Source: Catonia carolina (lineage: Eukaryota > Arthropoda > Insecta > Hemiptera > Achilidae). Taken from it: a stretch of 64,000 nt of DNA. Under the pieces are notes generated by a model, which saw only the letters and a program-made list of their open reading frames with translations, had not been told where the DNA came from and did no database searches. The stretch's first letter is position 1. Each line of letters opens with the position of its first letter. Location of the stretch: the NCBI GenBank assembly GCA_035578175.1, contig JAQMRL010000001.1, forward strand, positions 378,081,220 to 378,145,219. The letters run 5' to 3'. The translations under genes and the position numbers were made by a program. Shown in pieces: positions 28,818 to 64,000 of the stretch.

Positions 28818-30402
28818 CCTTTAGCCAGTATGCGCATCAAATGATGCGGCCCCTCCAATCTGACATTTTTCAGTACGCGCATCATAAGAGTTTTTGTGCC
28901 ATAATTTATTCCAGTGAACGCATCAAATGATTGTTAGTAGTTTAACTTGTGCTGCTATCTGTCAGTATAATGTGGATTTTTTTTTCGTTTTCAAACTCTC
29001 CCAACAGATGTCATTGCTGTTTGTTTGAATGACATCATATGCTGTGTGTACTTTTTGTTGTTGAAGGTAGTTTTAGGTTATTTTTATAGTTACACCAGAG
29101 CCGCCACCTTGTACTGTGTTGTTTTGTAGTTTATTCAGAATGTCTAAGACATTTTTTTCTGACAGTGAAATATTTGAATATTTTACAAATATTGAAAGTG
29201 AAGATGAAATCGCGAGTGAAAGTGAAACTGAAGAACCAACTAACCATGAGACTATTACTGACGAAGTTTTTGATTTAGTTGAACAGTTAGAACTTGACAA
29301 TGAAAATGTGATTGAACAAGTTACAGAAGCACAACGAAATAGTGAAAAGGGTGCAGGTAATGATTATGATTGGTTTATGTCAAATAATTTCAAACTTTTT
29401 CTCTTCGAATTCAATGATAGTGAATCTGGATTTTGTTCAGATATTGATGTGACTGCAGATTCAAATGAATTAGACTGTTTTGAAATTTTTATTGACAGTG
29501 ATTTAGTGAGTCACATTGCCGAGGAGACTAATAAATATGTTCAGTATTACAAATCATTGACACCCCTGAAACCGAAATCAAAAGTTCACAAATGGAGTGA
29601 CACTAATACCCCAGAAATTTACACATTTTTAGGGGTTACTGTGTTGATGCCTCATGTTAAAAAAAATAACATTTATGATTACTGGAGCACTAATAAACTT
29701 ATTGAGACACCAATATTTAGCAAAATTATGTCCCAAGATACATTTATTTTGTTGCTGAGATTTTTACACTTTGCTGATAATCGATCTCAAACTGCTGGCG
29801 ATAGATTGTACAAAATTCTTGTTATTATCATGACTTTGAAGCAAAAATTTTCTCATACATTTAAACCATTTCAAAATATTTGTATCGACGAGAGTTTAAT
29901 GTTATGGAAAGGGCGATTATCTATTAGACAATTTATACCAAGCAAGCGTCACCGCTTCGGTGTGAAACTATTTATTATGTGCGACTGCCTGACTGGATTT
30001 GTTTTAGATTTTATAATTTATGCAGGTAAACAAACCATGATTGAAAATGAAAATGATTTAGGCTTTTCTGGGTCTGTTGTGTCAACATTCTTAGCACCAC
30101 ATTTGGGCAAAGGCCACAGTGTTTTTATTGATAACTGGTATTCTAGCCCAACATTATTTCAATTTTTGCACAATAATCAAACAGGTGCTTGTGGAACAGT
30201 AAAGGCTAATAGAAAAAATCTACCGTCGTTTCCAACAAAAATGCAGCAGTATGATTATCATGCACAAAACACCCGTGTAATTCTGTGTGAAAAATGGTAT
30301 GATAAGAGGCCTGTTATGATGTTATCAACCATACATAAAAATAAGTTGATAGATTCAGGAAAAATTAACAGAAAAACAAATGAACCAATAATGAAACCAT
30401 TA

Positions 30403-30510
30403 CACTGGTCAACAAAGATTTTGTCCTAGAGACGTTGTTGGGTGATCCTAAAGGCATTTTTCGTGCTGATTCCGAATCTGTGCTTAGATTTTTTCTATCA
30501 CGTCTAGTTT
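30403..30510 (+). repeat. Left TIR of the CACTG element
   Basis: 108 bp matching the inverted right TIR, with longest shared blocks GTTGTTGGGTGATCCTA and GTGCTGATTCCGAATCTGTG. The outer 30 bp differ by a 10 bp A/T-rich indel. Confidence 0.92.
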
Positions 30511-30876
30511 TCGTATGATAGACGAATGTATGTTTTTCCTACAACGAAAGTAGTAATTTAATTTATTGATATGTCTTGATAGCACGAGCAGACGAAAATA
30601 AAACTTTCCTGTCGAAACATGTTGAATCTTGCACCATCTCATGATTACACACATTCTTATCCCTTTGTTTAAAACACTCCTGACTCAGCAGGCACTTCAC
30701 ATCAGTATGTGACTAACTTTCAGCGCGTTAAGACGTTTGTTTTTTCTCGGAAGACAGTTTGTGAATTTTGTTGTGAATTGTAATCATTGTAATCATTGAT
30801 GGGACACATTGTGTAATCATTGTGATCATTGATAGGACCCATTGTGCAATCATTGTGAAGTGGCTTAGCTTTCATC

Positions 30877-32541
30877 ATGCCTAGACAGTGCGTGAACCAC
30901 CCAGATGAATTTTGTTACGTGTGCGGTGAAATTACGTTCAAGGCTCAAAGGCGGAACATTACTCCCTTTTTAAGACAGTGTTATAAACTTTATTTTGACT
31001 GTCCGTTGGGTGACTAGGATAAAGGATGGGCGCCTCATGTGATGTGTAGCACCTGTGTAAGGCTCCTCACCGGTTGGACTGAGGGAAAACGTCATATGAA
31101 ATTTGCCGTCCCCATGATTTGGCGGGAACCTCGGAATCATGTTTCAGACTGTTATTTTTGTTTAAAAAACATTAAAGGTATTACACAGAAGTCAAAACAC
31201 ACAGTAAAATATCCAAACAACCTGGAATCAGCGATACGACCAGTCCCTCACTCCGAAAATTTACCAGTGCCGGAACCACCGAAAAATGTTAATATTAGCG
31301 AAGATTCAGAAAGTAATGAAGAATGTGAGAATGAGGGATTTGAAAACACGAAGGATCCAAATTTCGGACCGAGTACGTCTGATGAACGTCATTTTATAAC
31401 ACAAGAGGATTTAAATGATCTAGTGCGCGACTTAAACTTGTCCAAAAAGCAGAGTCAACTCTTAGGATCACGATTAAAGGGTTGGAAATTGCTGGATCCA
31501 AAAACGAAAATTTGTATGTATCGATCTCGCCATGACGAGTTTAAATTATTTTTTTCTCAAGAAAACAACCTTATTTTTTGCAATGATGTTCTCTCTATTA
31601 TGGATACTCTTAATTTGGAATACAACAGAGATGATGATTGGCGTTTGTTCATTGATTCATCCAAAGTAAGTTTAAAGGCTGTTCTGTTACATAATGGAAA
31701 TAAACTCCCCTCGATACCGTTAGCTCATGGAACTGACATGAAAGAATCTTACGAAAATATGCAGTTGCTTCTCGAAAAAATTCACTACGATAAATATAAG
31801 TGGAAAGTTTGTGGCGACTTAAAAGTCATTGCAATTTTACTAGGCTTACAGCTTGGCTACACGAAATATTGTTGCTTTATCTGCGAGTGGGATAGCAGAG
31901 ACAGAAAAAATCATTACTTGAAAAAAGATTGGCCACAACGTAAAGCACTCGTTCCTGGATCCAAAAATGTTCTTTTTCAGCCTTTGGTCGATCCAAAAAA
32001 TGTTCTTTTGCCACCTCTACATATTAAATTAGGACTTGTTAAAAACTTCGTGAAAGCTATGGACAAAAATGGTGCTGGTTTTACTTATTTGAAACAAAAA
32101 TTCCCTAAAATCAGTGAAGCAAAGATCAAAGAAGGAATTTTTATTGGGCCTCAGATTAGGGAAGTGCTGAAGGATTCGGAATTTCAACTGCAATTGAACT
32201 CATTGGAAAAAAGCGCGTGGAACGCATTCAAAAATGTAGTTGAACATTTTCTAGGAAATGACATGGCTGAAAATTATCGCGATCTGGTGGCTCATCTAAT
32301 TAAATCGTACCACAAAATGGGCTGCAATATGTCTTTAAAGATTCACTTCCTCGACTCACACCTGGACTTTTTTCCGCCAAACCTTGGCGCCGTTAGTGAT
32401 GAGCATGGTGAGCGTTTCCACCAGGATATTTTACACATGGAAAAACGGTACCAAGGAAAGTTCAGCAGCAACATGATAGCAGATTACTGCTGGACACTGA
32501 AAAGGGACTTGCCAGAAGCTAAATATGCGAGAAAATCCTAG
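30877..32541 (+). CDS. Transposase-like protein of the CACTG element, one internal stop
   Basis: A 555-codon frame starts at the ATG giving MPRQCVNHPDEFCYVCGE and is open to 32541 except for one TAG at codon 47 (31015-31017). The residues before the stop continue the family pattern, so I choose this start over 31039. The N-terminus is Cys-rich (CYVCGE, MCSTC, DCYFCLK), suggesting zinc binding. The middle and C-terminus carry candidate DDE residues: D260 in LFIDSSK, D314 in VCGDLKVIAI followed by a CxxC (C333, C336) in CCFICEW, and E512 in EHGERFHQD. A C-terminal MEKRYQGKFSSNMIADYCW block follows. I remember this protein type as a common 'uncharacterized protein' in arthropods and cnidarians. 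The catalytic triad is my proposal, not a proven assignment. A nonsense change aside, it appears intact and recent. Confidence 0.88.
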
Positions 32542-32627
32542 GTGAGTACCCATTTTTTCACATTTTTTATTAACGATTTATTTGCTCTTTCCCCCTTGAA
32601 CCCCCATCTTATCCGGTTGTCCTAAGG

Positions 32628-32745
32628 AAACTAGACATGATAGAAAAAATCTAAGCACAGATTCGGAATCAGCACAAAAAATACCTATAGGATCACCCAA
32701 CAACATGTCTAGGACAGAAAAAAAGGTTTTTTTTGTTGACCAGTG
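32628..32745 (-). repeat. Right TIR of the CACTG element
   Basis: 118 bp inverted match to the left TIR. It ends GTTGACCAGTG immediately before the duplicated TTA. Confidence 0.92.
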
Positions 32746-33545
32746 TTATCAGTCATAGATTATAACAAAAACATGGGACTTGTAGATAAATGTGACATGC
32801 AATTGTCATTTACTGATAGTGCCAGAAAATCTAACAAATGGTATAAGAAACTGTTTTTTCATTTACTAGATATTTGTGTTTTCAATTCACATATTTTATT
32901 CAAATCTAAAACAAAGAAAAATATTCCATTTTACAAATTTAGACTTAATCTTGTTGGACAAATACTTGAAAAGTATTGTGAAGTAAGACCCGCCACATCA
33001 TCAGGAGGGAGACCACTAAAAGATACAACTGCACCACTGCGATTAGTAGCTCGCCATTTTCCAAAACCCATACCTGGCTCATCAAAAAGAATTAAAGGGC
33101 AACGAGGATGCTACGTTTGCAAATGGACTACAATAGGACCACAAACAAGAAAAGTAACATCATATATGTGTGAGGAATGCAACGTTCCACTTTGTGTGCA
33201 TCCATGCTTTCAAAATTACCACATAAAAAAACATTTTTGAGTATGTTATTATTGTTTCATTGTAAGTATTAGTGTGTTTTTATCTGTTTTTAATTTACAC
33301 TGTTATACAGTATTATTTTAGATGTATTTGAACATTTTCACATCATATGATGTGCATACTTTTGTAATGTATTTTTATGGTTTTTTAATTATATGTACGT
33401 ATTATTGCAAAAAAATATATAAAAACATTAATTTCTAATAAAATAATCAAAGAAAAACTCTCATTTGAATTTTTTGAAACATCTAAAAAAACTCACTATC
33501 TGGGGTACGCATATCATGAAATAACTTACTGGCTAAGGTAATAGG

Positions 33546-57400: not shown

Positions 57401-59443
57401 TTTTTATTAGTTATATACAGTACTGTAATAATTTACTGAATTTTAAATTCAATAAAACTCGTTTATATTACCTAACGCAGACATTTTATGATCTGTAATA
57501 AAACGAAACAATTGACAAGTTTTAATATGTATGAGAGAATAATTAAAGTTTTTATTACCTTACATTTACAATATGTTTTTATAGTTTAGAATAATTCATT
57601 CAATCCAATAAAGCTACTTATTCCTTTTGATTTTTGTATTTAACTAAAGCTGGAATGTTTTTACGTTGTTATCTATGTTTTAGAACTTACATACATGTAT
57701 TAGATTATTAAACACCTGGAAAACACAAATAATTGAAACAGTTTTAATAAAAACTTAAAGCTTAATTTTCTACAAAGAAAACTAGTATTAAAATATAACA
57801 AGAGAAACATGTTTTCATATGTGAAATGCAACATTTAAGCTTCATTTAATCCATCTAACTCTCTTTCGTATTTATGTCAACCTTGTTATACTGTAGTCTA
57901 CATAATTTGACTATAATTTTACGCGACACGTTAAATTGCTTGAATATCACATTTCATCATGTCGGTTTACAAAGGAACTACAATACGGTTAACTTCAATC
58001 AGGTAAATTTGTACGTCAGTTCAATCCATTTGAGTAGAACTTTACAAATAGTCAGAAAATATGAAAATATTAATACACAATTAAACACATTTCACTTATA
58101 GTACTGGCTTACACATACTGCTTTAACAAATTAATCATTTTTTTTAATACCTCGTAATTAACTTTTATCTTTAATACTTGTTTTATTGAAATATGGTTCT
58201 GTTAAAAAGTTGTTCTTCTGAATAACAATATAATTTAAATTATTAGAGCATGAAAATAATAACAAATTGGTGTGTACTTCAAACAATATCCCCAATTTAT
58301 AATATTTTTTTCCAATAACAATAACTTAATAAATTATAAACATCAAACACATTTTTTATCAGACATCACAATTTCAAAACATATGAATCAATTTATGTCC
58401 TTGACATCAAACTACCTCTGATGGAAAAAACACCGGTAAGCATACTTTATAAAATTGGATTTGAATATTAATATACATAAAAATAAACAGTCTTGATCAT
58501 CTTAGCCACCCATGAAAAACTTTTTATAAAATTCTTTCCAAAAATTCACAAGATAAATCCACCAAAAATCAGCTACAACACTGTTGAAAATAAACTAGCA
58601 TTCGAAAGAAAATAAAAGATGAAAAGCTATTAAAAATTTAAATCCCATAGGTCGTAAAAAACAATGATTACTGAACGAAAATGTAATACGTATAATAAGT
58701 AAAAAATGTAAAAGTTATAAATTTCTCTTTACGCTCGTTCATTCTTTCCTGTCAACAGTCCACATTTATAGTTCTTTGTTATTATAGAAGCAGTCAAATT
58801 TTCATTTCTCTTCTTTCAAAATAAATAAAAGAAAAATAATTGTTTCCAACAGCTCTTATTTTTTCTTAAGAGTTGTTGCTTATTTTTTAACTTAATATTT
58901 CTCCAATGTGTCTACTGTATTGACAGTAGAGATCTGGTTACAATAAAAAGAAGTGAACTTATATTCTCCTCAACAGGTTTATAAAGCGTGAATACGAAGT
59001 AAATAAAGATCAATAACACTATAAAAAAATTAAATCGTAAGAAAGAAATTTTATGAATTCTCTTTCAGTTCTTAGAGCCAATAATAAACTATTAATAAAT
59101 TTCTTCAAAGAACACCAAGTAAAGAGAGTAATGCACTCAACCGTCTGACAAAATTTTTTGTGATACCACACTTGGGCGTCTTAAACAAACATATTTCTAA
59201 AAATTAACCCATAAATATTTTGACTTCTACAGCCGTGTCTTTCTTCTACTACGGTTAGAAAAGACACAAAAGAATAACAAAAAAGTTGTATTTTTAGATG
59301 CTAAAGGTAATAATATCAATTTTGTTATTGTAAATATATCTTCAACAGTTCTGTTATTAGTTTAAGTAAGTTTTAAAATTTGATTGTTTTTCCAATTTTT
59401 TTCATAAAATAATTCATCATGAATGAGTTAATTTCGTTATTAA
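57401..59443. other. AT-rich stretch, no gene recognised
   Basis: About 2 kb; the 75-codon ORF at 57874-58101 has no motif. Confidence 0.5.
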
Positions 59444-60165
59444 TGAGTTACTTGCCGATGACCTGATGCTACAGGAGAAAGAGGATGATCTGCAGAGAGC
59501 AATCTTCATGTTGAAAGAATTCTGCAAAGAATATAAGTTGACAGTTTCGATAAAGAAGACAAAAATAATGGCATTCAGGAGGAAGGAGCCAGTCAGAAGC
59601 AAAATTGTTGTAGACAATAATATTTTGAAACCGATGTCCAACTTTCAGTTTCTAGGTTGCAACATTACATACCAACAGGATATAGATGCTTGCAATAAGA
59701 TGCACCGATTTCAGCAAATAAGCGGAACTATCCACCGAACCTTAAAAAATAGCACCAGCAAAAACACGAGGTTGAGATTTTCTAAAACAATAGCAATGCC
59801 GACCCTACTCTATGGCAGTGAAACTTGGGTGCTATCGAAGCGACAGGAGAGTAGATTGCAAGCATCTGAAATAAAATTTCTTCGACATACATATAGGTGT
59901 AGTAGAGCAGATCGTTACTGAAATACCGAGATAAGGAAAGAACTCAACATCTTCTCTATAAATGATAAGGTATCTCAGAACTGAATGCAGTGGTTGGAGC
60001 ATGTGAGCAGAATCATGAAATATAGGATAGCTAAGCAAACACTGAGCTATAAACCGGAGGGAAAGAGATAACGAGGTCGCCCGAGAAAAAGATAGGCAGA
60101 TTTTAGAGGTTCGGAACAGGCAGAGAATCTAATTCATGAAAGGCAGAAGAAAAAGAATTATTGAG
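59444..60165 (+). pseudogene. LINE reverse transcriptase C-terminal part
   Basis: The longest LINE remnant here. Upstream of the first ATG the frame carries LLADDLM (59448-59468), the catalytic YADD-type motif with Leu before ADD. An open stretch follows to 59921: EDDLQRAIFMLKEFCKEYKL, KKTKIMAFRRKEPVRSK, NFQFLGCNITY, TRLRFSKTIAMPTLLYGSET, then QASEIKFLRH. After a stop at codon 152 it continues, with three more stops, through IRKELNIFSINDKV, MQWLEHVSRIMKYRIAKQ, YKPEGKR and RGRPRKR to a basic end. These are palm-subdomain and post-RT boxes of an insect LINE. The two catalytic Asp of the ADD motif are intact, but the copy is dead. Confidence 0.9.
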
Positions 60166-61645: not shown

Positions 61646-62840
61646 AATAGCTTTTAGTTCTTTTAGGTCTGATTTTGGCTATGTAGTTTAATAATTGAAG
61701 TTCTAGGGCATCAAATAAATTACAAAAACATGTTTATGACATTAAAAACTGGAATAGGAACTAGTGGTTTAAAATTAACGAAACAATCATCATCATAAAC
61801 TATACAAATTAGGCTTCCTGGTCTGTTACGGCTCAAAATTTAGTAGCCCGTGATTTCATGAAGAAGTTGGTACCCATCTCTTCCAAGTTCGTCCAATACA
61901 ACGTTCCCCGGTTGGCTTTTAAGTAAATACCTGTTAGAGTGTCCTTTCATCTCACATCCACGATAAATTACTATACAACTCTTGCCTGTATTTTAGAACA
62001 GTTGATATCAATTTGGTAAATTATTTTCTTTATGAAATTGATAGTTTCGATATGATTTTATATATAATAGCTTGTTCGCTAATTACAGCTGTGAACGTTG
62101 GTTCATATTTAGATGAAAATCTCTCAGTTTTAACCTTAGTCTTTTACATGTGTATCAAGTATGTTTAGACCAAGTAAGGTGTCAATGTAAGTGCATTCTT
62201 AAGTAGTTCACGTCTATAAACATCATTATTGTTTGTTTCTCATTATTGTTTATGTTTTCATAATTGTTTGTTTAGTTTATTAGAACTATACAAAATGTAA
62301 TTTCACAATATTCCAGTAATATTCCAATTAAAGCTCAAGAATATGTTTGTTGAACTCAATTCGGAATGTCTAAAGTGGAAGCCTCATAAAATTTAGGATA
62401 TCGTGAAAATTGTAAAACATAATTTTCCGACTTAAGGGGACACGGGAGTCCTATACTTCACCATACGTACTACTTATTGAACATTTTCTCCGCTTGTACT
62501 GCTTAGAACTTTCTGCATTTTTTCTTATAATATTATTATGCTTTTATATACATTTTGAATAAAAGAGTGTTGTAATATTTTGGTTTTTAACAAAGATAAA
62601 AAATTTAATTCGGCTCACCTTTCTGATATATGAAATTTTGAAACATTTATAGCTCTAAAATAATTTAGAAAGCATTTAATGCACATGTTATTTGTAGAAG
62701 CTCTGCATCCTCATGTAGGTTAACTACCCTGTAATTTTAATCAAAATTTTTTGAGTGCTTGCTGAGAAAATGTTCCTTTCGTGCTAAAAAATGAAATTTT
62801 CAGAAGTGACAAAAAACTGAAAATTTAACTTAGGCTACAT
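61646..62840. other. No gene recognised
   Basis: AT-rich, nothing recognised. Confidence 0.5.
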
Positions 62841-62880
62841 CCCAGCTTCCCAGCTTCCCAGCTTCCCAGCTTCCCAGCTT
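62841..62880 (+). repeat. Octamer minisatellite
   Basis: Five exact tandem copies of CCCAGCTT, the first complete unit at 62841. Confidence 0.97.
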
Positions 62881-64000
62881 CAAAGTCACTATGATTGTAT
62901 TAGCAAACTTGCTTCTTACAGTATGAAGCAAGCTGTTGAGGAGGCTCTGCTTGAAAATATATTGATTGTGACAACGGAAATAAAAATTTATCTCCAGGGT
63001 TCAACGAAACCTGGTAAAAAGGGGCTATCAGTCACTAACTTGAATAGTGTCAACCACTAGTACTGAAACAGGCAAGGTATTAGATGTGGTCACACTCACT
63101 GATTTCTGTGATTGTCTTGATAACTACTGAAGCACTATAGAGAAGTTCTAAACAATTCAAAACAAAAATATCACGATAGCTAAGTTCTAACCAATGTTAC
63201 AGCAAACATTCGACTTAATGACATAAATACTGGAGAAAAGTCTATTAGCAGCACAAATTAAAAAAAAATATTAAAAATAGAAAGGTACGTACAACAACAG
63301 TAAATATATAAAATTAATCATAAGATTTTGATATATTATAAAATGTACAAACCAAAACAGACAAAAAAATAAAATTTTCGGACTCCCGCCTCCCCCACAA
63401 CGAAAATTGTAATGCTCAAGCATCCTTGTTAAAGTTAAAAAATATTCTAAAAATTAGTATTCCCAAACTTCAGAATAACCTAGTTAGGAAAAAGGCACAG
63501 AAGGTAGATGGGCAAACGACAATGATGAAATGAGAGACAAAGATAAAATTCAGATAAAGGACTTTATTTAAATGAAGAAAGTCGATGACAATAAAGTTCA
63601 TTAATAAAGTCCCCGCAAGGCATATTGTTAAAAACATTCCACAAGCATTCAATGAACTGTAAAAAGGTATTTAATGAACAATGGATTTTCAGCTTTGATT
63701 GCTAAAACGGAATTCATGTTAATAATTGGTTCCGTTTATCTCTAAAAATAGCTGCTTTAAAAATGTTTTATGGCTGTTTTTCTTAAACTTTAAAAAAATT
63801 GTAATAATTACTTGTATTGTTTAGGGTAAAAGAATTATGATTATTTATTTTGATGAAAAATATCATGAAAATCGATGAAAAAATGTCTTTCGAAATATTC
63901 TTTGATTAACCAGCATTAAAATGACGATTTAAATTTAAAAATAATAAGCGCAGTAAAAGAACGCAATAAAGTAGAGTAATAACTAAACAAAATAAATCTG
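62881..64000. other. No gene recognised
   Basis: AT-rich to the window end; a 60-codon minus-strand ORF at 63470-63652 has no motif. Confidence 0.5.

Follow-up and report, generated by a model that had tools for sequence, protein, structure and literature searches.

In a passage of PMC4079192, Chapaev elements are described as having CAC/GTG ends and 3–4-bp target-site duplications, and the Chapaev3 branch as duplicating TWA between a neighboring A and T; Garfield_BM, a member of that branch, is given there as 2289 bp long, with a 556-amino-acid transposase carrying the motifs C(2)C, LH and H(4)H. A section of PMC4411706 treats Chapaev3 as distantly related to the other Chapaevs, groups it with Transib and RAG1, and cites a 2008 Repbase report on Chapaev3, and the Pfam family DUF1280 (PF06918) is equated with Chapaev in an excerpt of PMC3985635. 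Here, we analyzed a 64,000-nt stretch of the genome of the hemipteran Catonia carolina (contig JAQMRL010000001.1; referred to as the window, with coordinates counted from its first letter), which contains a DNA transposon inside a piggyBac transposase gene, very probably a Chapaev3 element of the cut-and-paste type that transposed recently.

The element is exactly 2343 bp long, with the termini CACTGGTCAACAAA and TTTGTTGACCAGTG (outermost bases CACTGG...CCAGTG), and the piggyBac reading frame that it interrupts stays open once the flanks are joined across it. The original prediction, made from the letters of the window alone, had proposed a nested transposon of this length and with exact ends, flanked by TTA on both sides, and all of these points were confirmed (Table 1). 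A search with the joined flanks identified an empty site in an element-free piggyBac paralogue in the same genome, in which 300 of 300 bases aligned with five mismatches, no insertion or deletion, and a single TTA. This paralogous locus (L059, G000:C1:320120218-320120517) is about 96% identical to the window piggyBac over about 2.2 kb. Because the joined flank matches an element-free piggyBac with one TTA, the ends and the duplication are fixed for the window copy, which is the one site that the empty-site test covers. The terminal inverted repeats had been put at about 110 bp, close to the lengths over which they were aligned.

The element has many relatives in the 1.47-Gb genome. With the left inverted repeat as query, 39 matches were obtained, corresponding to at least 20 copies (a lower bound, as are all copy counts here), namely the window copy plus 19 more that were retrieved as 20 loci, L027 and L028 being a single copy that carries a large later insert. 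Ends and duplications were counted in the 14 of 20 copies with the outermost six bases (CACTGG) intact at both ends, leaving out L009, L018, L019, L024, L025 and L026, whose ends are damaged or missing. Nine of the 14 are flanked by a perfect 3-bp duplication, eight reading A[TWA]-element-[TWA]T and the ninth ATA; at random, 0.036 would be expected per copy (binomial tail 1.7e-10), and when the ends were shifted by a sham offset of 1, 2, 3, 4 or 5 bases, none of the 14 copies showed a duplication. The search for more genomic copies with the same ends and a 3-bp duplication, suggested along with the prediction, thereby came out in its favor. The 12 full-length copies diverge by 0.2–1.2% from their majority, and the family is therefore young; this figure excludes seven internally deleted copies, which misaligned (about 5–24%).

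At the protein level, the window copy does not encode an uninterrupted whole transposase because of an in-frame TAG, and the residue numbers used here (D260 etc.) assume read-through of this codon. An open frame of 560 codons, 554 from the ATG, is present in four other copies (L017, L018, L021, L024). Two protein searches returned 2742 and 2003 homologues (E <= 1e-3), two sets that may overlap, and a precomputed Pfam domain was attached to 0 of the 240 matches listed (120 per search), in agreement with the expectation of a widespread, unannotated protein. Seven of these 240 name their organism (Cordylochernes, three; Ranitomeya, two; Pyrocoelia and Araneus), thus covering arthropods and frogs, and all seven are labelled "hypothetical" or "uncharacterized". 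Nine of the 240 listed homologues, shorter than 500 amino acids, were dropped and the other 231 aligned; together with the structural model, this alignment supports the predicted triad D260/D314/E512 with a CxxC after the second aspartate (Table 1). E522, D536 and H515 are likewise invariant in this alignment, H510 varies (Q in 105 of the 118 of the second set), and the N-terminal C13/C16, C57/C60, H88 and C92/C95, candidate residues for a Chapa zinc-finger domain, are conserved. No relatives were confirmed in the collections viral_contigs or genome_contigs, and a text search of papers for the transposase motif found none.

Structure prediction, another of the checks suggested beforehand, returned an RNase H-like fold, and the protein is accordingly predicted to be a DDE transposase with a catalytic triad. 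The closest solved fold found for the predicted structure is that of RAG1/Transib, at about 12% identity over the aligned core. When the model is cut at residue 520, the aligned ranges would put E512 on E962 of RAG1 in 14 of the 17 rows with mouse numbering and on 961, next to it, in the other three. The same count-back, valid if the final eight residues align without a gap (their block has a predicted local distance difference test score, pLDDT, of 69), places E512 on residues 152 of HIV-1 integrase, 221 of PFV, 572 of Hermes and 531 of the P element, all of which we take to be the catalytic glutamate. D260 falls on residue 64 of HIV-1 integrase by range start, if there is no gap. C333 has the same spacing from the second aspartate as C727 from D708 in RAG1 (D-19-CxxC; RAG1 residues from PMC4914335), and H490/H495 are the proposed counterpart of H937/H942, with H(4)H preceding the catalytic glutamate in both proteins. 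RAG differs in its 5-bp duplication, as given in a passage of PMC6941560, versus 3 bp here. We also considered E522 and D536 as the third catalytic residue and set them aside, the cut model placing E512, not E522, on E962; H510/H515 as the H(4)H motif were set aside since H510 varies, H490/H495 being the better reading. Sequence searches of the PDB to E 10 found no RAG1 or Transib chain (one search gave three unrelated chains at E 1.3–2.2, the second none), no RAG1 match was obtained among the 38 members scanned against Pfam, and the RAG1 Pfam model gave one sub-threshold match in the host genome (E 0.23).

Taken together, these features agree with those described for Chapaev3 elements (Merrow, Garfield, Conan) in the same passage of PMC4079192: CAC/GTG ends, here CACTGG at both ends in 14 of 20 copies; a 3-bp TWA duplication between A and T, exact in 8 of 14 copies and in 11 of 14 loci of sister families described below; a paralogous empty site with one target copy, found at the window site; a length of about 2.3 kb; a DDE transposase of about 556 amino acids, here 554 codons, with C(2)C, LH and H(4)H, present in 231/231 homologues; and internally deleted derivatives. 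Merrow and Garfield have two exons according to that source, whereas the open copies here have a single frame, like most Chapaev3. The branch is thus probably Chapaev3 within the CMC assemblage, in what looks like a new family of a known kind. The original prediction was right about CMC as far as tested, since Chapaev3 lies inside it, and probably wrong in naming CACTA/EnSpm.

That the element is instead a CACTA/EnSpm transposon proper is very unlikely. Its CACT(A/G) ends and 3-bp duplication fit that group too, PMC12730594 calls CAC..GTG ends with 3-bp target-site duplications consistent with EnSpm, and C(2)C and H(3-4)H motifs are common to the whole clade; however, such ends and duplication are not diagnostic for CACTA/EnSpm because they are common to Chapaev3 as well, while the A[TWA]T target, the motifs and the one-gene layout of about 2.3 kb match Chapaev3 as described in the cited part of PMC4079192. 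Transposase_21 (PF02992), the CACTA model, was found in 0 of 38 members scanned against Pfam with E up to 1, a scan in which the filtering by HMMER discards the majority of matches with E above about 0.1. A TWA duplication is also given for PIF/Harbinger in a portion of PMC4482050, yet membership in that superfamily is contradicted by the CAC/GTG ends, by a large insertion bracketed by C(2)C and H(4)H, and by the RAG1-like predicted fold; no Harbinger model appeared among the Pfam matches of the 38 members, and we regard the probability of this origin as practically negligible. A new CMC/Transib-like lineage, resembling Chapaev3 in target site and motifs only, would accommodate the lack of a significant Pfam match, a likeness to Chapaev3 drawn from description and not from Repbase sequence, and RAG1/Transib as the closest solved fold found; it is nevertheless barely plausible, given that the checkable published hallmarks of Chapaev3, down to the neighboring A and T, are all present.

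Several observations weigh against placing the element in Chapaev3. Membership is based on published hallmarks and not on direct homology to a Repbase Chapaev3 sequence. In the Pfam scan of 38 members the window protein had no match, and those of the other members were all weak, to 12 families with a best E of 0.043 (zf-AD in three members and RT_RNaseH in two, among others), and PF06918 (DUF1280) was matched by 0 of 38 with E up to 1, where weak matches may be filtered out. The 3-bp duplication is absent from 5 of the 14 clean copies, a difference from the described Chapaev3. In the structural comparison, the pLDDT is 69 over the final ten residues of the cut model, and the HzTransib rows place E512 on 435 or 431, versus the 436 seemingly given in part of a review.

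Four of the five duplication-free clean copies (L011, L015, L023 and L027/28) have the flanks NT-element-AAT, as does the sister-family copy L041 (820-3217). Once joined, the flanks of all five loci read NTAAT, the normal target without an added or missing base, which the element splits after T and before AA. L020, the fifth duplication-free clean copy, does not fit this pattern, and L043 fits it and is equally readable as an AAT duplication. It is conceivable, though on balance we doubt it, that the Chapaev3 transposase makes two kinds of insertion, one with a TWA duplication and one duplication-free at T^AA of NTAAT; loss of bases after normal insertion would need the same three bases to be removed each time. 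Insertion without duplication is described for Spy transposons, of another superfamily, in a passage of PMC4482050.

The seven internally deleted copies form two classes, of about 1.72 kb (L010, L014, L015) and about 0.62 kb (L012, L020, L022, L026); a first deletion junction is common to both classes and a second to the shorter class, with a few single-base differences nearby. L010, L012, L014 and L022 have A[TWA]T duplications of their own, L015 and L020 have no duplication, and L026 has lost its left end. The deleted forms were presumably mobilized by transposase from another source, and the recurrence of the junctions among these seven copies suggests that a full gene is not needed for the ends to be mobilized. 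Searching the genome with the protein, with 86 of 1703 first-look candidates scored and 88 matches listed, identified sister families that are 51–62% identical to the query over nearly the full length, or over part of it for L057 (61%) and L066/L073 (53%). A[TWA]T was observed in 11 of the 14 sister loci with both ends readable (L042, L045, L046, L047, L048, L049, L051, L052, L053, L057, L066/L073), the others being L043 (AAT/AAT), L054 (TTT/TTT) and L041; three further loci were dropped, namely L050, which has a damaged left end and showed no duplication, L058, whose ends could not be located, and L077, with only one end.

In the mechanism we propose, the element-encoded transposase of about 554 amino acids would bind the long inverted repeats and excise the element through a predicted RAG1/Transib-like RNase H core (D260, D314, E512), with C333, C336, H490 and H495 possibly forming a zinc site; the excised element would then be joined to a 3-bp staggered cut in ATWAT, repair of which would yield the TWA duplication. 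With its frame stopped, the window copy would have to rely on transposase from other copies for any movement. The transposase family is entered in databases as uncharacterized; for it, the analysis supplies precisely placed termini, an unoccupied site, relatives that are intact and a predicted structure, and many gene sets would be corrected by applying the name Chapaev3. The original prediction expected this copy to link an unannotated protein family to a defined transposon; if the family is Chapaev3, the link already existed in the literature and, as cited there, in Repbase, and the gap lies in Pfam, which lacks a model. The predicted core adds structural support to the Chapaev3-Transib-RAG1 grouping reported in the cited section of PMC4411706, and on this prediction a protein without annotation would have a cutting core in common with RAG1, which rearranges antibody genes.

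Table 1. Coordinates of the element, its transposase frame and the interrupted piggyBac gene in the window.
Feature	Position	Strand	Remarks
piggyBac transposase (interrupted host gene), 5' part	29140..30402	+	Pfam DDE_Tnp_1_7, E 1.1e-67
Left target-site duplication, TTA	30400..30402		context A[TTA]
DNA transposon, very probably Chapaev3-type; young copy, broken transposase frame	30403..32745	+	ends, target-site duplication, 20 family copies, empty paralogue
Left terminal inverted repeat	30403..30527		125 bp aligned; local alignment
33-bp tandem repeat	30779..30856		2.4 copies, just upstream of transposase ATG
Transposase frame, 554 codons + stop	30877..32541	+	in-frame TAG 31015-31017; open part 31018-32541
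D260 codon, predicted first catalytic Asp	31654..31656	+	231/231 homologues; beta strand 255-261 (beta1 in model)
D314 codon, predicted second catalytic Asp	31816..31818	+	230/231 homologues; directly after beta strand 310-313
C333-x2-C336, C(2)C motif	31873..31884	+	231/231 homologues
L381-H382, LH motif	32017..32022	+	231/231 homologues
H490-x4-H495, H(4)H motif	32344..32361	+	231/231 homologues
E512 codon, predicted third catalytic residue	32410..32412	+	231/231 homologues
Right terminal inverted repeat	32611..32745		135 bp aligned, one 10-nt gap; local alignment
Right target-site duplication, TTA	32746..32748		context [TTA]T
piggyBac transposase, 3' part with zinc finger	32746..33240	+	Pfam zf-Tnp_2, E 4.7e-9; end of DDE_Tnp_1_7, E 1.6e-8

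Some further variation was seen among the family copies. Members appear to differ in the copy number of the 33-bp tandem repeat, as suggested by blastn alignments, and large inserts, about 6 kb in L016 (1218-7329) and about 14.5 kb in L027/L028, later interrupted two of the copies themselves. Both L024 and L025 have the first element base changed and a right flank that exactly repeats a stretch of the left flank (129 bp and 35 bp, respectively), which may reflect aberrant repair at insertion. Rfam and tRNA scans of the window were empty. Elsewhere in the window, a reverse transcriptase fragment was detected at 59427-59918 (RVT_1, E 4.8e-6, 26.9 bits, just under the curated cut-off of 29.6), and a perfect 8-bp tandem repeat, TCCCAGCT, is present in 5.2 copies at 62840-62881.
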